Source: Actinomycetes bacterium (GTDB taxonomy: Bacteria > Actinomycetota > Acidimicrobiia > Acidimicrobiales > JAMCQF01). Taken from it: DNA of 59,181 nt. The translations under genes and the position numbers were made by a program. The notes under the pieces are model-generated. The model was given only the letters and a program-made list of their open reading frames with translations, made no database searches and was not told the DNA's origin. Position 1 is the first letter of the stretch. The number at the start of each line of letters is the position of its first letter. Shown piece by piece: positions 46,034-58,687 of this stretch. The stretch spans positions 1 through 59,181 of the forward strand of contig JAJZBS010000006.1 of NCBI GenBank assembly GCA_021851885.1, given 5' to 3'.

Positions 46034-49000
46034 TCAGCCTTCGTAGCCCTCGACGTCGACGACGACGTCGACCGAGCCGCTGTGGTTGAAGACCGTGATC
46101 GCGCCTGTTGGTCCGACTCCGGCGACGACGAGGTTTGCCACGCTCTGACCGGGCGACCAGTTGAGGTCCGAGGCCGTCGGGAGCGGCTGACCTTCAGGCC
46201 AGGCCGTGAGGTAGGAGCCGGCGGTGGTGTCCGTCGCGGTGACCTCGAGCACGACCGACGTCGCGCTGGCCGGCACCTCGCCGACGCCGGCAACCTGGAT
46301 CGTCTCCGACCCGCCGGGACCGAGCGTCGTGAGCGCGGCGTTGGCAGCAGGGAGGCCCTCTGAAGCACAAAACGCCGGCACAGGCGAGCTGCCGCAGCGG
46401 GTGTCGGCGATGCGGGTCGGCGACAGGGCGGTGTAGCCGGCGCCCGTCGACGAGAAGTAGCCGCTCACGTCGACGACGACGTCGGTGGAGGCGCTGGCGA
46501 GGACATCGATGGTGCCCGACGCCGACAGCGCGACGACGGACCGGTTGGCGACGGTCTCGCCCGCGCGGAAGTTGAGGTTCGAGGCCACCGGGATGGCCAC
46601 GGGCCCGAGGCTCGGGCTCGGGCCCGGATAGGCAGTGAGGTAGCCGTCCGCCACCGGGCCGACGACGGTCAGGTTGACGATGACGGCCGTCGCTGATGCG
46701 GGAACCGATCCGACGCCCGCGACCTGGATCTCGAGGGGGCTGCCAGGCACGAGGGTCTTACCGTTGCACTGGGCGGCGGCGGCGGTGAGCGACGAGGGGT
46801 TCCCCGGCCGCGTGTCACAGATCCGCGACGGGCTCGTCGCAGTGAAGCGCGAACCGGACCCCGTCGTCGCGTATCCCTCGACGTCGATGGCGAGGTCGGT
46901 CGCTCCGGGCGAGCCGTTGAAGACCGCGACCTGGCCCGCGGCGGACACGGGCACCTCGACGAGGCCGGCGACGAGCTGGCCTGCGGAGAAGTTGAGGTCC
47001 GAGGCGACGGGGCGCGCCGTGCCCGCGGGGGACACCGTCAAGTACCCCGGTTGCGCCGGGCCGATCGCGGTGACGTTGAGCACGACCGCGCCGATCCCGT
47101 TCGTGGGAACGGGCCCCACCCCGGTCACCTGGACCATCTCCGTTCCCCCTCCCGCGAGAGCTTGGCCCCCGTTCGCGCAGGGCCCGCTCACGCCGGCGGG
47201 GACATCGGCACCGCCGGCCGCCGCAGCGGAGCGCGTGTCGCAGATCCGGGCCGGCGTCACCCCGACGTAGGAGAGACCGGGCGGTGGCGGTGCGGCGTAG
47301 GTGAACCGGTCGGAAGCAGAGGTGGCCGAGGTGCCGCCAGGGGTCGCGACGGTGACGTCGACGGTGCCGGCGACCTGAGCCGGAGAGACGGCGGTGATCT
47401 CCGTCGGGGAGACGACCGTGGCGCCGGTGGCCTCGACAGAGCCGAAATCGACGATGGCGGGGTTCTGGAAGTTGGTGCCAGTGATCGTGACCGCCGTCCC
47501 ACCGGCGGGCGGGCCGCTCGCGGGACTCACGCCTGTGACGGTCGGCGGCGTGGGCGGTGGGTTCGTGACGTCGACGAGCTCGACGGCCGTCGCTGTGTAA
47601 AAGACCTCCAGGCGCCGTCCGCTTGCGACAAGCACCGCGCCGTTCGCCAGCCCGGCGAAGGTACCGCTCACCCCTCCGGCCGCGGTCAGGATGTCAAAGG
47701 TCGTGCCATAGGGCGCGCCTGCAAAGGAGTCGGTCACTGCGAGGGTCCCCCCGATGCTCGCCGTGCCGGAGCCGGAGAGCTGGGAGTAGCCCGAGCCCGG
47801 CGCGAACCCCGTGATGTCGGCGTGGAGTCCCCCACCCGCGGCGAACGTCGCATTGCCGCTGTCGTGGAGTATCCCGGGCGTGGGGGTGGTGCTGCCCGGC
47901 ACGACGGCCTCACCGGTGACGCCCGCGTCGAGGCCGCCGATGGAGCCGGTGCCCTCGAGCACGGCGTCGGGGAAGCCGTGGGAGAGCGTCACCGTGCCGG
48001 CAGTGGCCCCTGCGGCGACGTCGAGGACGCCGGTCGGACCCGCCGGGCTGCCGCTCCCTTCGACGACGATGCCGCCGGCGGGGGTGACCGAGTCGGTCAC
48101 CTTGGTGGCGGCGAGCCCTGCGGGGCCGGACACTGTGGTCTCGGCGGTGAAGGAACCGGTTCCGGAGATCGTGCCCGAGAACGTGGTGGTCGTCCCGGTC
48201 GCGGGCTCCGAGATGACCACCGAGTCATCGGTGATCGAGTAGGGAACTGTTGCCGACGACGGCAACTCCCACGCGAGGTCGCCATTGGCGCCAACGGACA
48301 CGGAGGTCGCGGACCCGAGGGCGCCGGCGGCGAACGCCACCACGTGCCCGTTGGCATCCACAGTCGTCCCGCCGGAGTAGGAGTTGGCGTGCGGCAGGTC
48401 GGCGGTTGTGAAGGACGTGAACGGGCCCATCACGAGGCCCAGAGAGCCCGTGAGGTTCTCGCTCACCGTGAAGTTCAACCCGCCCGTTCCCGTGATCGTG
48501 AAGTTGGCGGCAGCGCCGGAGTCGGTGATGGTGCCGGTGTCAGGCGTGACGGTGGAGACCTGCTGAGCGTGCCCGGCAAGGTCGAGCGTCGCTCCCGCCG
48601 CCACGTCGAGCTGCCCGCTGCCGTAGGCGTTCGCCGCGCCGGAGTCGAACGTTGTCGAGCCCGCCGTGGCGAGCATCGCCCCGCCAGAGAAGGAGTTCGC
48701 CCCGCTCAGCGTCACGCTCGTCGCGTCGGTGTACGTGTTCAGGTACCCCGGCCCCGTCACGTTTCCCGAGAATGCGATCGAGCCGCTGGCGGTGCCGACG
48801 TAGAGCTCGCTTGTCACTGTCGTGAGGTCAATGTCGTTAGCGATCGTGCCCTGCGCCGGCACGCTGACCATGGCGTCCGTGCCGACTGTGATCGTCCCGG
48901 TCCCCGCGCTGCCGCCGCAGCCGAGGTAGAGGGCCGTCCCGTAGAAGACCGTCGTGCCGCCACCGTAGGTGTTGGCGGCACATGCCGGAGGGAGAAGGTC

Positions 49001-50680
49001 GACGTTTCCGGTGAACGAGCTCGCTCCGATCTCGAGCGAGTAGCCGGAGCCGCCGTCGGTGACGGCGCCACCGACGATGAAGAGGGTCGCGCCTTTCTGG
49101 TCGATTGTCGAGCTTGCCGTGAGCGTGACGGCGCCGTCCCAGGTGACGTCAGAGGCCCCGGTCGCTTCGAGGGTCCCGCCGTCGAGTGTGAGGGCGCCGT
49201 TGGCCGCGGGCACGGTGATCCCGTTCGCGCTGTCCAGGACGCCCCCGACGACCGTCGTCCCGCCGGTGCCCAGCGCAGAGCCGTTGGTGATCTCGAGCGT
49301 GCCGCTGCTCACGGTCGTGCCGCCCGTGTAGGTGTTCGTCCCCGACAGGGTGAGTGCCGCCGCCGCGTCGACCTTGACCGCTACGGTGCCGCCCGAGCCG
49401 GAGTTGTCCTGGATCGTCCCGGAGAAGGTGGTCGTCCCGCCCGCGTCCTCGAGCGTCACCGCCGATGAGGCGAGCTGGTTCTCGACGGTGCCGGCGCCAG
49501 AGAAGCTCGCGACGGCTTGTGAGAGGCCGTGCATGTCATAGGTCGCGGCGGTGTTGACGGTAAGAGCGCCCGTGGTCGCGACCTCGTCCGACACTGCGCC
49601 CTCGGTGACAAGCGTGCTGCCCGACGCCGAGACGGTCGTGCCGCCCGTATAGGTGTCGCCTGTGGCGTTGTCGAGCACGACGGTGTCCCCCGGGCATCCG
49701 GGGTATCCGGTCGTGAGGCTCCCCGTGCCGGTGATCTGGCCGGTGAGCGTTGTCGTTACCCCCGAGGACGCGCAGACGACGACCCCGCCGGGCGAAGACG
49801 TCGAGTTGTCGATGATCGGGTTCGCGATCGTTCCCGTCGCCTGCAGCGAGGGAAGGAGGGACGCAACCGAGGCCACCGTGACCGTGCCGGTTCCGCCGGA
49901 GATCGCGTCAGGGCAGGACGGGTCGAGCTCTCCCCCGCCGACGGCTGTCGTGCCCGAGTAGGTGTTCACCGTGCAGTTCCCCGCGCTCAGCGGGTAGAGG
50001 ACGACGGTGCCGGCGTTCGCCGCGTCGCCAACGGTGAGGTTCATCGCCGATCCTGCGATCACCCCTTCTAGTTCGAGGCTGGCGGCGTTCTTCGATGCGA
50101 CCTCCTCGCCTGAGGTCCCGATCGTGATGCCCGGATGGAACGCCACAATGCCCGACGTCCCGGCCTGGCAGATCGCGATCGTCGTCGCCGACCCACAGTC
50201 GGTCGTCGCCGCGGTCGGTGTCAGGGTGATCGACGTGGCGGCGCCGGACCCCTCGTTGACCGTGTAGGGGTCCTCGAAGTCGATCGAGTCGAAGGAGGTC
50301 GCTGGAGCCGCGCCACCGCCTCCAACCTCGGTGCCGGCGTCATAGGTCACCGTCGCGGTGGTCGCCCCTACGGGGAAGACGATCTGGGCCCCCGCGGGGG
50401 GGCCTCCGGCGGCCGTGCAGGACGCCCCGCTCGTCGTCGTCCAGTTCGTCCCGACCGACCAGTTGCCCGGGGCGCCTCCCGATCCGTTCCACGTGCAGAC
50501 CGCGGTGGGCGCCGCGCTCGCCGGGGAGCTGTCGAGGGCAAGGAACGCCCCGAGGGCTCCGACCGCCAGCGCGGCGAGTGGCGTTGCGAGGATGGCTGCC
50601 AGGACAAGCCGCGCCCGGCGCGGTCGAGGTCTGACGCGACTGGGACTCGACTGGCCGGCTACCGTCTCCGGGTTCGCCAT
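46034..50680 (-). CDS. Large secreted protein: autotransporter-type repeats, TIG domain and three C-terminal D-V-x-G-Y modules
   Basis: 1548 aa. Residues 1-56 are a long signal peptide (Arg-rich n-region, hydrophobic 25-48, A-S-A cleavage site at 54-56). Residues about 60-1030 are Gly/Thr/Ser-rich and carry passenger-associated repeats such as NTYTGGTTVSSGTLEITNGS and ANSYSGGTTVDANG, which predict a beta-helix. An IPT/TIG domain follows (about 1040-1130, TVTGVSPASGPPAGGTAVTITGTNF). Three modules of about 135-145 residues then start at about 1136, 1277 and 1413, each with P-x-R-I-x-D-T-R, SDLNxxxGQ/E and D-V-x-G-Y. There is no beta-barrel, LPxTG or C-terminal TM. AAGGAG precedes the ATG. Function unknown; a surface or matrix role is inferred. 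Confidence 0.88.
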   Translation of the reverse strand: MANPETVAGQSSPSRVRPRPRRARLVLAAILATPLAALAVGALGAFLALDSSPASAAPTAVCTWNGSGGAPGNWSVGTNWTTTSGASCTAAGGPPAGAQIVFPVGATTATVTYDAGTEVGGGGAAPATSFDSIDFEDPYTVNEGSGAATSITLTPTAATTDCGSATTIAICQAGTSGIVAFHPGITIGTSGEEVASKNAASLELEGVIAGSAMNLTVGDAANAGTVVLYPLSAGNCTVNTYSGTTAVGGGELDPSCPDAISGGTGTVTVASVASLLPSLQATGTIANPIIDNSTSSPGGVVVCASSGVTTTLTGQITGTGSLTTGYPGCPGDTVVLDNATGDTYTGGTTVSASGSTLVTEGAVSDEVATTGALTVNTAATYDMHGLSQAVASFSGAGTVENQLASSAVTLEDAGGTTTFSGTIQDNSGSGGTVAVKVDAAAALTLSGTNTYTGGTTVSSGTLEITNGSALGTGGTTVVGGVLDSANGITVPAANGALTLDGGTLEATGASDVTWDGAVTLTASSTIDQKGATLFIVGGAVTDGGSGYSLEIGASSFTGNVDLLPPACAANTYGGGTTVFYGTALYLGCGGSAGTGTITVGTDAMVSVPAQGTIANDIDLTTVTSELYVGTASGSIAFSGNVTGPGYLNTYTDATSVTLSGANSFSGGAMLATAGSTTFDSGAANAYGSGQLDVAAGATLDLAGHAQQVSTVTPDTGTITDSGAAANFTITGTGGLNFTVSENLTGSLGLVMGPFTSFTTADLPHANSYSGGTTVDANGHVVAFAAGALGSATSVSVGANGDLAWELPSSATVPYSITDDSVVISEPATGTTTTFSGTISGTGSFTAETTVSGPAGLAATKVTDSVTPAGGIVVEGSGSPAGPTGVLDVAAGATAGTVTLSHGFPDAVLEGTGSIGGLDAGVTGEAVVPGSTTPTPGILHDSGNATFAAGGGLHADITGFAPGSGYSQLSGSGTASIGGTLAVTDSFAGAPYGTTFDILTAAGGVSGTFAGLANGAVLVASGRRLEVFYTATAVELVDVTNPPPTPPTVTGVSPASGPPAGGTAVTITGTNFQNPAIVDFGSVEATGATVVSPTEITAVSPAQVAGTVDVTVATPGGTSATSASDRFTYAAPPPPGLSYVGVTPARICDTRSAAAAGGADVPAGVSGPCANGGQALAGGGTEMVQVTGVGPVPTNGIGAVVLNVTAIGPAQPGYLTVSPAGTARPVASDLNFSAGQLVAGLVEVPVSAAGQVAVFNGSPGATDLAIDVEGYATTGSGSRFTATSPSRICDTRPGNPSSLTAAAAQCNGKTLVPGSPLEIQVAGVGSVPASATAVIVNLTVVGPVADGYLTAYPGPSPSLGPVAIPVASNLNFRAGETVANRSVVALSASGTIDVLASASTDVVVDVSGYFSSTGAGYTALSPTRIADTRCGSSPVPAFCASEGLPAANAALTTLGPGGSETIQVAGVGEVPASATSVVLEVTATDTTAGSYLTAWPEGQPLPTASDLNWSPGQSVANLVVAGVGPTGAITVFNHSGSVDVVVDVEGYEG

Positions 50681-52876: not shown

Positions 52877-53359
52877 TCAGCCGTAGTAGCCGCTGTGGAT
52901 GTAGACACAGGGAACGCCCTCTGCGTGGAACATGGCGCAGTTGCGCGGGTCGTCCTCGAACGCCAGGCGCACGTCGAAGCCCGCTGCGCGCAGGTTGGCG
53001 AGCGCCTGCCTCTTGTACCCGTCGACTGCGGTGTGGTCGGTGCGCTCCCGCATGATCAGGAGGTCCCAGCGCAGCCCGTAGCGGTTCAGCCAGGCCAAGG
53101 TCTGCGGCCGAACGCGCTGGGGCCTGCCGGTGACCAGTGCAACGGCAAGGTCGGCGTCCAGCAGGTCGAGAAGGCGGGCCAGCTCCTCGACGAGGGGGTC
53201 CTCCCCGCACGCGGCGAAGAACCGCTCCCAGTCGCGGTCACCTCCTTCGATGTAGTGCTGACGCCCGGCCGCGTCGGACAGGACCCCGTCGACGTCGAAG
53301 ACGACGGCGGGGCCGGGGGCAATGGGCCCCGCGCGCCAGGTCCAGCCGGATCCGGTCAA
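52877..53359 (-). CDS. HAD-superfamily phosphatase, polynucleotide-kinase 3'-phosphatase-like
   Basis: 160 aa. Motif I is [11 protein letters not shown] (nucleophile and acid Asp), motif II LVTGRP, a Lys in YKRQAL as motif III, and motif [11 protein letters not shown]. The small cap and the R-P-x-x-x-R-P-Q-T pattern resemble the HAD domain of phage and bacterial polynucleotide kinases or swiveling 5'/3' nucleotidases; the substrate is unknown. The TTG start at 53359 overlaps the acs stop (TTGA), so it is translated after acs. No other start gives the motif I region an N-terminus of normal length. Confidence 0.75.
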
Positions 53360-55335
53360 TCCTCGGCTGGTGCCGCCTGCGAGCGGCGGCGAATCTCGTC
53401 CACCACGCTCGCGTCGGCAAGGGTGGTCGTGTCGCCGAGGGCGCGCCCCTCGGCGACGTCGCGCAGCAGCCGTCGCATGATCTTGCCGCTGCGCGTCTTC
53501 GGCAAGTCGTCGGTGAACACGATCGACTTCGGCCGTGCGATCGGGCCGATCTTGTCGGCCACGTGCTGGCGCAGGCGCGTGCCCAGGTTGTCGCCTGCGC
53601 TTTCGCCACTGCGCAAGGTCACGAAGGCGACGATTGCCTGGCCGGTCGTGGCGTCGGTGGCACCGACGACGGCCGACTCGGCGACGGAGGGATGGTCGAC
53701 GAGGGCCGACTCCACCTCGGTCGTCGAGACGCGATGCCCGGAGATGTTCATAACGTCGTCGACGCGCCCGAGTAGCCACAGGTAGCCGTCCTCGTCGATC
53801 TTCGCCCCGTCACCGGCGAAATAGCGCCCCGGGAAACGGCTCCAGTAGGTCTCGTGGTAGCGCTCAGGATCTCCGTAGATGCCGCGCAGCATCGCCGGCC
53901 ACGGCTGGGTCAGGGTGAGGTACCCGCCACCGTGCTCGACCGGGTTGCCGTGGTCGTCGACCACCTCTGCGCCGATGCCGGGCAGCGGGAACGTCGCCGA
54001 GCCGGGCTTGCAGTCGGTGACCCCGGGCAGCGGGGAGATGAGGATCGCGCCCGTCTCGGTCTGCCACCACGTGTCGACGACGGGGCAGGTGCCTCCCCCG
54101 ACCTCCTTCCAGTACCAGACCCACGCCTCCGGGTTGATCGGCTCGCCGACCGAGCCGAGAAGGCGCAGGCTCGTGAGGTCATGGCGGGACAGGTAGCTCG
54201 TCCCCCACTTCATGAACGTCCGTATGGCCGTCGGAGCGGTGTAGAGGATCGTCACTTTGTAGCGTTCGACGATGTCCCACCAGCGGTCCTTGTCGGGAAA
54301 GTCGGGAGTGCCCTCGTACATGACGCTCGTCGCGGCGTTGGCAAGCGGCCCGTAGACGATGTAGCTGTGGCCGGTCACCCAGCCGATGTCCGCCGTGCAC
54401 CAGTAGACGTCGCGCTCTGGGTGGAGGTCGAAGACGTAGCGGTGCGTGAACGCCGCTTGGGTCAGGTACCCGCCCGTCGTGTGCATGATCCCCTTGGGGC
54501 GGGCGGTCGTACCGGAGGTGTGGAGGAGGAAGAGAAGGTCCTCGGCGTCCATGTGCTCCGGCGGGCACTCGGCCTCGGCCGACGCCATCAACTCGTGGTA
54601 CCAGAGGTCGCGCCCGGCGCTCATCGCAACCGCACCCCCTGGGGCCAGATCGCCGAGGCGCCGGACAACGACCGCGTGTTCCACGTCGGTGCCCTCGATG
54701 GCCGCGTCGACGTGCTGTTTGAGCATCACCGGAGCACCTCTGCGCCAGCCCCCGTCCGCCGTGACGACGACGCGGGATCCCGAGTCGACGATCCGGCTGC
54801 GCAGGGCGTCCGACGAGAACCCTCCGAAGACCACGATGTGCGGAGCACCGATTCGCGCGCAGGCGAGCATCGCGACGGGCAGCTCCGGGATCATGGGCAT
54901 GTACATCGCGACGCGGTCGCCCCGCCGTACGCCCAGGCTCTTGAGGACGTTGGCAAAGCGCTGGACCTCGTCGAGGAGCTGCGCGTAGGTGATCGTGCGC
55001 GTCTCGCCCGACTCGCCCTCCCAGTAGTAGGCGACCCTGTCTCCGAGCCCGCCGGCAACGTGGCGGTCCAGACAGTTCCAGCTCGCATTGAGCGTTCCCC
55101 CGTCAAACCAACGGGCGAATGGCGGCTCCCACGCACAGGTGGTGTCCCACGGCCGGAACCAGTCCAGGGCGTGGGCCTGCTGCTCCCAGAATCTGTTGAC
55201 GTCAACAGCGGCCTGATCGTAGAGGGAACGATCGGTCACGAGAGCGTCGCTGCGGAACGCGGGAGACGGGGGGAAGACGCGGCTCTCGACGAGCAGCTCC
55301 TCGATCGTGGCTCCCTCGGATCCGTCGTCAGCCAT
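53356..55335 (-). CDS. acs: Acetyl-coenzyme A synthetase
   Basis: AMP-forming enzyme (659 aa): acetate + ATP + CoA to acetyl-CoA. The ACAS N-domain [16 protein letters not shown] precedes the adenylation P-loop [72 protein letters not shown], and the C-terminal [14 protein letters not shown] whose Lys is the site acetylated by Pat-type enzymes. The ATG at 55335 follows GGGAGGG. Divergent from the fusion gene across 76 bases; coupled to the HAD gene downstream. Confidence 0.96.
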
Positions 55336-55411
55336 GACGCACACCCTCCCCGCTGGCTTTCCCACGCACGCTACCTGACTCGCTGGTCCGACCTGCCATG
55401 ATGGTGGGATC

Positions 55412-58400
55412 GTGGAAGTGCGACGTACCTGGCCGGGCACCTCCGGTCCTCCGATCGCGCCCCCTGCCGACGGCGTGCCGGACACGCTCGATGTGTCGGT
55501 TCCTGTCGGATGCCGCGTCCTCGTCCTGGGGAACCTTCTCCTTGCCCCCGGTGGCGAACAGGGCTCGACCGATCCACGTGGACCGGCCGCTGCGGCCAGC
55601 CCCGGCGGGTCCGCCGCGCGCAGCGATGGTCCGTTCCAGCCATCCCACGACCCGCTCGGCGAGCTGGTCTGGGCGCTGCGAGACTGGGACGGCCCCGGCG
55701 TCGTCGTCCTCAACGGCAACGTCGTCGAGCTCGACGCTGCCAGACCGGATGAGCAGCCTGGGTCGGCTGGGGCATCGACGGCCGGGGCTGGGGCATCGAC
55801 GGCCGGGGCTGGGGCATCGGCGGCTGGGGCCGGGGCATCGGCGGCTGGGGCCGCAGAGGGTGGGCGCCCATCCGCGCCGGCACCGGCCGAGGCGCTTCCG
55901 ATCAGCAGGGGCCCTCTCCCGCCGACCTTGGTCGATGCCGTGTCCTCGTTCCTCGGCGGCGGGGGACGACGGGTCATCTATCTCCCCGGTTCCCACGACG
56001 CCCACATCGCCGAGGACCCTGCCCTCCGCCAAGCCGTCCTCGCGTCGGGGATAACACTTGCTCGCAGCGCCGATCTCCACTTCGCCACCTCGCAGGACCC
56101 GCGCGTCGTCCACGTCGAACCGGGCCGGTCGCTGCACGATGCAGCTGCGGGCGGGCTGGGCGTCACGGCACCGGCAAGGCCTGGGGCCAGTCCCCACGCC
56201 GGCCGTTGGCTCGGTTCGGAGTCGGCGCGCCTCGGCGACCTCGGCCTGTTCTCCCGATTCATGACCTCACGGTTCCTCTACCGGCGCCTGGGCAAGAGGG
56301 CATGGCTCCTGCTGCTCCCCATCGCGGTGCCGCTCCTGCTGCGCATCCCGTGGATCGCTTGGGCCTGGGCGCACGCGACGTCGATCCACGTCGGAGGATC
56401 CCGGGCGGCGACGTCCGCTGCGGTCCACGCGGCGAGCTGGCGCCCCTACCTCAGGGCCGCTCTCGTCACGACCGCCGTCGAGCTCGTCGTGGTTGTGGCC
56501 GTGATCGCCCTACTCGGCCGCTGGACCTGGGAGGCAATCGACGAGCTCGCGCCTGTTGCGCGCCTGCGCGGGATCGCCGCCAACGACGCGGCTCGCGACA
56601 GAGGCCGCGCCCTCGTGGCGTCGGGAGCGTCAGGGCTTGTGACGAGCAACACCTTTCAGGCGGAGCTGACCCACCTTGCAGGAGGCTTCTACGCCAACGC
56701 CGGCGCCAACACCCTCGTCGTCGACGCCATCCCCGCCCGGTTCGGCCTGCCGCCCGTCTTCGCGACGCGAGCCCGGACGTCGTGGCTCGAGCTCCAAGCG
56801 GGCGCCGATCTCCACGCCGTCCTCTACGACGGCAGCGGGTCCGCCCACGGCGGGAACCTTGTCGAGCGCGCAGTCGCGCGCCGCAGCCCGCAGCGGCCAA
56901 CACCGGTGGCGCTTGCCGCGGCCTGGCCCCAGGGAGGCTCGTGGCCGCGCCTCGCCGGCGACGATCGCCACCGTCGCCTGATCCGGCGCGTCGCCAGCCT
57001 CTCCATCGCGGCCACGGCCGTCGTCGATCTTCTCTCGGCCGTCACACCACCCCTGCGGGGGCGGCTGCACGCCATCTTGGAAGTACTGCCGCTCCCGGCC
57101 ACCCAGGCCGCCGCCGCTCTCGTCGCCCTAGCCGGCGTCGCCCTGGCCGCCATGGCGCGAGGGATCCGCCTCGGGCAGCGACGCGCCTGGACGATCGGGA
57201 TCGTCGTGCTCGGGGCAAGCGTCTTCCTCAACCTGGTCAAGGGCGGAGACTTCGAGGAGTCCCTCGTCTCCTTGGCGTTGATCACCTTTCTCCTCGGAGC
57301 GCGCCAACACTTCCGCGCCCCCTCCAACCATCCTCCGACCCGCGCAGCGCTCACCACCTTCGGCGGTGCCCTCACGGGGGTGATCCTGCTCGCAGCGGGT
57401 GGCCTCGAGATGGCGGAGCGGCTCGGGCACGACCGCCATTTCATCTTCTTCCCCCGCGCCGTCGCGGCGGTGGCCGAGCGCATGGTCGGGTTTCATGCCA
57501 TCGCGCTTCCCTCGCACATCGACCGCTTCCTCTCTCCGGCCATGGGCGCGATCGGCGTCGGCCTCGCTGCGGTCGCGCTCGCCATCGCGACGCGTCCAGT
57601 ACGCGACCTGCGGGACAACCTCGGCGGGCACGACACGATGGAACGCGCCCGCGACATCGTCCGTCGTCACGGTGGAGGCACCCTCGACTACTTTGCTCTG
57701 CGCAGCGACAAGCGCCACTTCTTCCACCGTGACAGCCTCGTCGCCTACGCCGTCTTCAACGGCATCTGCCTCGTCTCACCCGATCCGATCGGCCCGGCGG
57801 CCGAGAGGGAGGAGGTCTGGGGCGCCTTCCGGAGATTCGCGGAAGCCCGGGGCTGGTGCCTGAGCCTGCTCGCCGCCAGCGAAGAGTGGCTCCCGATCTA
57901 CCGTGCCTCGGGATTGCACCATCTCTACATGGGCGACGAGGCGGTGGTGGACGTCAACCGTTTCACCCTCTCCGGCAACACCAACAAAGGCCTTCGCCAG
58001 GCACACGGGCGGATCCGCAAGTACGGCTACACGATCGAGTTCCATGACCCCGCAACCGTGGATCGCGACCTGGCGGCGAACCTGGCCTCCCTCATGGGCG
58101 AGACGCGCCGCGGCGAGGCCGAGCGCGGATTTTCCATGGCCCTCGGGCGCGTGTTCGATCCTTCGGACACCGGGCTGCTCCTCGCCGTCGCCCGTAACGC
58201 CGACGGCACCCCGGTCGGCTTCTGCCAGTACGTCCCCGCCCGCGACATCAACGGCTTCTCCCTCGACGTCATGCGGCACGACGGCGGAGACCATCCGAAC
58301 GGGCTGTTCGACTTCATCCTGGTCGAGACGGTCTTCCACCTGCGCGACAACGGCTTCACCGGCCTCGGTCTCAACTTCGCGGCGATGCGCTCGATCCTTG

Positions 58401-58687
58401 ACGGGAGCACCGCCGACAGCGTCGCCCGCCGGCTCGAGCGGTGGTTCTTCCGCCGCCTTTCGGACTCCGCCCAGATGGAGTCACTCTGGCGCTTCAATGC
58501 CAAGTTCCACCCCGACTGGCAGCCGCGCTACATCGTCTACGACTCCCTGGAGAGGTTCCTGCCGACCGCGATCGCCCTCATCCGGGCCGAGTCCATCTGG
58601 GAGATCCCCGTCGTCGGGCGTTTCCTCGTGCCGGGCGCTGACAAGCAAGACGCCAAGGCGGCGGAGCACGCGGCGCAGGCGGGGTAG
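55412..58687 (+). CDS. Membrane fusion protein: degenerate metallophosphoesterase plus MprF/LysX-like lipid aminoacyltransferase (DUF2156)
   Basis: 1091 aa. Residues about 33-480 have the layout of a calcineurin-like phosphoesterase interrupted by two TM segments (about 297-320 and 347-369), but its metal motifs are altered: LGNLLL (40-44) for S-D-x-H, NGNVVE (101-106) for G-D, GSHD (193-196) for G-N-H-D and SNTFQAEL (412-419) for G-H-T-H. Residues 528-730 hold about six TM segments. Residues 745-1070 are a DUF2156 GNAT-like domain ([43 protein letters not shown]) as in phosphatidylglycerol lysyl/alanyltransferases. Family activity: transfer of an amino acid from aminoacyl-tRNA to membrane lipid. 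GTG start at 55412; the Shine-Dalgarno is weak. Confidence 0.85.
55768..55851. repeat. 21-bp minisatellite, four units, in the fusion gene
   Basis: Four 21-base units encode G-A-S-T/A-A-G-A heptads (residues about 120-147), in a loop between two degenerate phosphoesterase motifs. The first two units are identical; the last two differ by a few bases. In frame. Confidence 0.85.

Follow-up and report, generated by a model that had tools for sequence, protein, structure and literature searches.

A LysX-like aminoacyl-lipid synthase of the Acidimicrobiales with a probable pseudo-phosphoesterase as its N-terminal half

Introduction

Pseudoenzymes are usually met as isolated end products. LpxH, the UDP-2,3-diacylglucosamine pyrophosphohydrolase, is a metallophosphoesterase (MPE) of lipid A synthesis, and to our knowledge the actinobacteria concerned here have no lipid A. 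Transferases with an LPG_synthase_C domain, among them MprF and the actinobacterial LysX, are expected to use aminoacyl-tRNA. In the retromer, the subunit Vps29 is a metal-independent scaffold built on a catalytically inactive MPE fold (PMC3101248). The product of actinobacterial LysX is Lys-DAG, diacylglycerol serving as the acceptor of several LysX enzymes (PMC10580965); LysX2 (Rv1619) is an unusual actinobacterial MprF-like protein (PMC8974105). In the open-access literature we found no description of an MPE fused to MprF or LysX, nor of a pseudo-MPE of this kind.

Here we analyze such a fusion in an Acidimicrobiales contig (JAJZBS010000006.1), the whole 59,181-nucleotide stretch of which we refer to as the window, and follow its relatives through the order. 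An earlier note on the same DNA, made from the sequence alone, had proposed that the N-terminal half is a degenerate phosphoesterase, and we report below how its claims fared.

Results

Domain organization of the fusion protein

The fusion gene occupies 55412..58687 on the + strand, where the earlier note had placed a two-part protein of 1091 residues; the frame is exactly as described (1091 aa, with the stop codon counted in the coordinates) and is present in a single copy in its 3.29-Mb genome. The start codon is GTG, and a second GTG at V22 leaves the true start uncertain. The domain order is an MPE fold split by a transmembrane (TM) hairpin, a LysX-type TM region and an LPG_synthase_C domain, all features given below being on the + strand. 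The first part of the degenerate MPE domain (55493..56290, residues ~28-293) is delimited by the match to A1, a profile made from an alignment of 31 N-domains, together with an AF2 model and Foldseek, and the second (56582..56941, residues ~391-510) by the A1 match, AF2 and the alignment with intact relatives. Between them lies the TM hairpin (56300..56530, residues ~297-373; hydropathy, conservation and AF2 helices). Its hydrophobic segments, at ~297-318 and ~345-373, fall after the middle-His motif and before the last one, and a conserved S-R-x-x-Y-R-R motif precedes it. Hydropathy confirms that two TM helices divide the phosphoesterase part, as had been claimed, and in the alignment the intact relatives carry the hairpin at the same place, between the H4 and GHxH motifs. 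A 21-bp tandem repeat (4.1 copies, 95% match; 55765..55851) codes for a Gly/Ala/Ser-rich linker between MPE motifs 2 and 3, which has low pLDDT in the AF2 model.

The LysX-type TM region (56963..57616, residues ~518-735) is supported by partial NCBIfam LysX and MprF matches, by hydropathy and by PF16995 (tRNA-synt_2_TM), which matched the homologues L035 and L043, above the cut-off in L035; a Pfam scan of the window protein itself gave no PF16995 match. The LysX match, the best of the partial NCBIfam matches, covers residues 518-1073 with 261.6 bits, compared with an equivalog cut-off of 742. The MprF match (residues 521-1057) is far below its equivalog cut-off and begins at position 319 of 841 of the profile, so that the N-terminal flippase is not represented. 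The LPG_synthase_C (DUF2156) domain (57656..58540, residues 749-1043; Pfam E 4e-63) scores 213.7 bits (cut-off 27.5), spans positions 3-298 of the 298-position profile, and aligns over its full length with PDB entries 4v34 and 4v36, bearing out the impression of a complete DUF2156 domain. No tRNA synthetase (LysRS) domain was found in the window protein by the Pfam scan; it has the TM region and the LPG synthase domain of LysX without the C-terminal LysRS. The label "MprF-like" given to this half thus holds for the catalytic domain, but the architecture is closest to actinobacterial LysX minus LysRS, and the flippase half of MprF is absent. In the motif F-[KN]-x-K-[FY], the window protein has N, as do the LysRS-sized LysX homologues L303 and L304, whereas PaMprF and BlMprF have K. 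Judging from its family, the window transferase may use phosphatidylglycerol or diacylglycerol as acceptor. The soluble parts of both the MPE and the transferase are probably cytoplasmic, because there are arginine-rich motifs on either side of the hairpin and the TM segments are probably even in number.

Degenerate metal-ligand motifs

We aligned the homologues and scored eight canonical MPE residues, those of D-x-H, GD, GNH, the middle H and GH-x-H, a check that the earlier note had proposed. The window copy retains one of the eight, H195, the other seven being replaced (N41, L43, N103, S194, P237, N413 and F415). The D-x-H motif has become N41-L42-L43 (55532..55540) within G-N-L-L-L, and the Asp of the GD motif is N103 (55718..55720) within N-G-N-V-V-E. 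The GNHD motif reads G-S-H-D (S194-H195-D196, 55991..55999), with S194 in place of N and H195 kept, and the GHxH motif reads S-N-T-F (N413-T414-F415, 56648..56656), with N413 and F415 in place of H-x-H. These four changed motifs are just as they had been quoted; in addition, P237 (56120..56122) stands in place of the middle His, which in intact relatives lies in E-H-G. D196 corresponds to the structural, non-ligand Asp of GNHD, a residue kept in 93% of dead copies. The window N-domain neither reaches the PF00149 gathering score nor has the metal ligands of a catalytic MPE. Because seven of the eight ligands are lost, it is most likely unable to bind the usual metal pair and catalytically dead.

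Identification and predicted structure of the N-terminal domain

Sequence-only methods fail to detect the MPE in the window N-domain. A Pfam scan of the window protein returned only LPG_synthase_C, with no MPE match at E<=1, and residues 1-510 had no match in family searches. Searches of PDB sequences yielded no MPE with the window N-domain and noise only with an intact N-domain, and a first scan of genome contigs with the N-domain query found nothing. The MPE identity was confirmed through homologues and predicted structure. With window residues 1-512 as query, an N-domain homologue was found in 33 of 99 relatives, and the A1 profile matches 115 of 397 genomes of the Acidimicrobiales (mostly metagenome-assembled, plus the RefSeq genome of Acidiferrimicrobium sp. 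IK) as well as a handful from other classes; most of the matches lie within open frames of ~950-1270 aa. Over the domain, the window copy is 22-41% identical to 30 aligned relatives.

The structure prediction and fold search suggested by the earlier note retrieved MPE-fold proteins. AF2, run with the 31-row alignment, gave a window N-domain model with a mean pLDDT of 76.9 and a core above 90, and the Foldseek list for this model is headed by MPE folds (Vps29, prob 0.93; PptH, 0.90; LpxH, 0.91), with further matches to the PolD small subunit, purple acid phosphatase and Rv0805. The E-values are all above 0.001 (best 0.016), probably due to the hairpin and the low-complexity inserts. The N-domain of the intact fusion L048 was modeled with a pLDDT of 89.8 and matched LpxH with an E-value of 5.7e-8 (prob 1.00), followed by GpdQ, Rv0805 and purple acid phosphatase. 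By AF2 and Foldseek, the window domain is predicted to have the calcineurin-like MPE fold, a double beta-sandwich.

Intact and dead relatives

L048 has a complete set of motifs: SDLHL, AGD, GNHD, EHG and GHTH. PF00149 is above the Pfam cut-off in all three intact fusions scanned (L048, L136 and L180) and in the stand-alone proteins L056, L106 and L110. We tallied the ligands of the 96 fusions with a near-complete N-domain: five have 8/8 (L048, L136, L180, L181 and L144), two have 7/8, three have 4-5, and 86 have 0-3. Fusions with intact sites, whose existence had been guessed, therefore do occur in L048, L136, L180 and L181, and in L144 (G202) as far as its contig reaches. We also considered L144 as an intact stand-alone enzyme that had lost its partner; its frame runs to the contig end and has a C-half match, and it is a truncated fusion. 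The dead short frames number two, one at a contig edge and one with an in-frame stop. L194 (G315) is a dead fusion with an in-frame TAG after the N-domain, which could be a sequencing error or a natural split. An assembly artefact as the source of the fusion was rejected, as the fusion recurs in many families. Together, the loss of seven of eight ligands, the predicted MPE fold and the intact fusions elsewhere strongly support the proposal that catalysis was lost and the fold retained.

Stand-alone relatives of ~450 aa have intact ligands; for those whose profile match stopped short of D-x-H, the motif is present in those that were aligned. Two further families of the phylum, f77 and f79, commonly have such LpxH-like MPEs with a TM hairpin (L104-L122, ~450 aa), with all ligands present wherever they could be aligned.

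Evolutionary history

Two trees of the N-domain, one of 119 rows with the ligand columns removed and a careful one of 53 rows, both require at least five changes between the intact and dead states. Because the outgroups are intact, we read these changes as losses, in L035, L182, L140, L053/L141 and a large clade that includes the window, and we infer that the direction was from intact to dead. Ligand loss occurred at least five times in the Acidimicrobiales and allied lineages, that of the window included. In a tree of the C-half only, all fusions form one clade (support 100) in which the intact ones are basal, and the dead fusions lie in a 26-row clade (support 99). The N- and C-trees agree and there is one fusion clade; therefore, the fusion arose once and its two halves descended together.

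Either half can also be missing. L208 (G011) is a LysX-like protein nested among the fusions, beside L035, without any MPE domain and with a different gene directly upstream, and in L059 the N-domain is strongly eroded. Conversely, L056 (G004) is an intact MPE alone, nested among the fusions; no LPG_synthase_C was found in its one-contig, 99% complete genome, an apparent loss of the transferase half.

Upstream of the fusion gene, both the window (52877-55342) and L043 (5715-8176) have genes for an acetyl-CoA-synthetase-like protein and a HAD phosphatase; in L038 and L046, NADH dehydrogenase (nuo) genes adjoin the fusion. The gene neighborhood is consistent with vertical inheritance and offers no functional hint. 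Elsewhere in the window, 46034-50680 on the - strand encodes an apparently secreted protein of 1548 aa with an IPT/TIG domain and a match to the passenger-associated-transport-repeat (PATR), which is unusual for an actinobacterium.

Selection on the dead domains

In dead copies, the ancestral residue is kept in 16% of cases in the ligand columns versus 67% in 41 other conserved columns (p 9e-5). Pairs of dead copies, formed among other fusions because the window copy has no close relative, have N-domain dN/dS values of 0.12-0.29, similar to or somewhat above those of the C-half; the N-domain is the faster-evolving half in most pairs. Because of these low ratios, we conclude that the dead N-domain is under purifying selection rather than in free decay. 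It is not indispensable everywhere: the erosion in L059 and the absence of the domain from L208 indicate that some lineages can dispense with it.

Discussion

What the dead domain may do

We consider it probable that the window protein represents a tRNA-dependent, LysX-like aminoacyl-lipid synthase with a pseudo-phosphoesterase N-half, the metal ligands of which were lost at least five times and which was kept as a non-catalytic membrane module. By the trees, a membrane-anchored LpxH-like MPE with its TM hairpin was fused, once, to a LysX-type transferase, and the metal ligands of the fused phosphoesterase then disappeared on at least five occasions, one of them in the window lineage. The dead domain was most likely retained as a scaffold docked to the membrane on the cytoplasmic side, or as a lipid- or phosphate-binding module, with a part in placing or regulating the aminoacyltransferase; this role is suggested by purifying selection, by fold retention and by the fact that the ligands were lost selectively. 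The phosphatidylglycerol or diacylglycerol to which the transferase would add an amino acid is probably reached from the cytoplasmic face. For the window domain, a docking, scaffolding or lipid-sensing role is a putative one, drawn from analogy. Lipid- or nucleotide-sensing regulation of aminoacylation by the N-domain, the role put forward in the earlier note, is plausible, because the nearest solved fold is that of LpxH, which hydrolyzes a lipid, and because purifying selection acts on the dead domain.

Other readings of the same data deserve weighing. The N-domain could be a passive vestige that is heading for deletion and is tolerated because the transferase does not need it. The faster evolution of the N-half in most pairs, its erosion in L059 and complete loss in L208 amid fusions, and the repeat-derived linker inserted in the window copy would all fit, but the dN/dS values of dead pairs are far below 1, a domain of ~400 residues has been retained across many families, and structural positions were kept while the ligands vanished; we regard this reading as unlikely. 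Continued catalysis, through substitute residues or a single metal site that is left, is a good deal harder to accept. It could appeal to H195 and D196, which remain in the window, to D1 or H5, kept in some dead copies, and to scattered conserved carboxylates (E460, E485); however, the replacement residues are heterogeneous and often hydrophobic, and no conserved set or cluster of His, Asp, Glu or Cys residues that could supply the ligands exists across the dead copies. Such substitute ligands in homologues are what the earlier note had said would overturn its view. That the N-half is not a phosphoesterase and resembles one by chance is barely conceivable: the window protein has no Pfam MPE match and no PDB sequence match, but its identity of 22-41% to 30 aligned relatives, some of them fusions scoring above the PF00149 cut-off, and a Foldseek list headed by MPE-fold proteins already contradict this.

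A further possibility, on which we are doubtful, does not compete with the pseudo-phosphoesterase reading but carries it further into the past. The ancestral fusion may have been a two-step enzyme in which the LpxH-like domain hydrolyzed a lipid phosphate or a nucleotide-activated lipid, thereby supplying or tuning the acceptor of the transferase; in dead copies, another enzyme would supply the acceptor and the domain would be kept for docking only. By analogy with LpxH, a membrane-lipid pyrophosphohydrolase and the nearest solved fold, the substrate of the ancestral MPE may have been a lipid phosphate or pyrophosphate, and from this resemblance the original fusion protein may have linked the supply of the acceptor with its aminoacylation. 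In keeping with this, the same hairpin is present in intact MPEs that stand alone, and the C-domain groups with actinobacterial enzymes, several LysX enzymes using diacylglycerol (PMC10580965). On the other hand, G004 has an intact MPE alone and no LPG_synthase_C, such that the two activities are separable, and the substrates proposed for family members are putative. More broadly still, we tentatively envisage a two-step membrane-lipid enzyme whose hydrolase has repeatedly turned into a dead lipid-sensing or docking module setting the output of cationic aminoacyl-lipid, leaving, mostly within one order, a graded natural series from enzyme through pseudoenzyme to domain loss.

Within one family we find the stand-alone enzyme, the intact fusion, fusions with some or nearly all ligands gone, a shrunken domain and a deleted one, and the partner domain serves as an internal control. 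Exchanging N-domains, intact for dead, on a single transferase could show directly what an enzyme domain does after its chemistry is lost. The family also hints at a hitherto undescribed step at which the Acidimicrobiales may control lipid aminoacylation, and it may lead to the missing substrate of the LpxH-like membrane hydrolases of actinobacteria.

Comparison with known systems

The N-domain of the intact fusions is closest, among solved folds, to LpxH, with which it shares the motif order D-x-H, GD, GNHD, H, GHTH and a membrane-lipid context. Unlike LpxH, the fusion has a TM hairpin between H4 and GHxH and a LysX-type half, and the window copy has lost seven of the eight ligands. Vps29, the top Foldseek match of the window model, likewise has an inactive MPE fold, but it is a eukaryotic, soluble, separate subunit that keeps vestigial metal binding, and the likeness found is structural. 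On the transferase side, the TM region and LPG_synthase_C are common to the window protein and to LysX, the bifunctional lysyl-lipid synthase/LysRS of Mycobacterium and Corynebacterium, whereas the window protein has an N-terminal MPE-fold domain and no LysRS. MprF, the aminoacyl-PG synthase/flippase, shares the synthase-side TM region and LPG_synthase_C, but its N-terminal flippase domain has no counterpart in the window protein. LysX2 (Rv1619) differs in having its synthase domain outside the cytoplasm, and it is not reported to carry a phosphoesterase domain. Both parent families, the MPEs and the LysX-type transferases, are thus known, and the main interest of the fusion lies in the well-documented evolutionary series that it provides.
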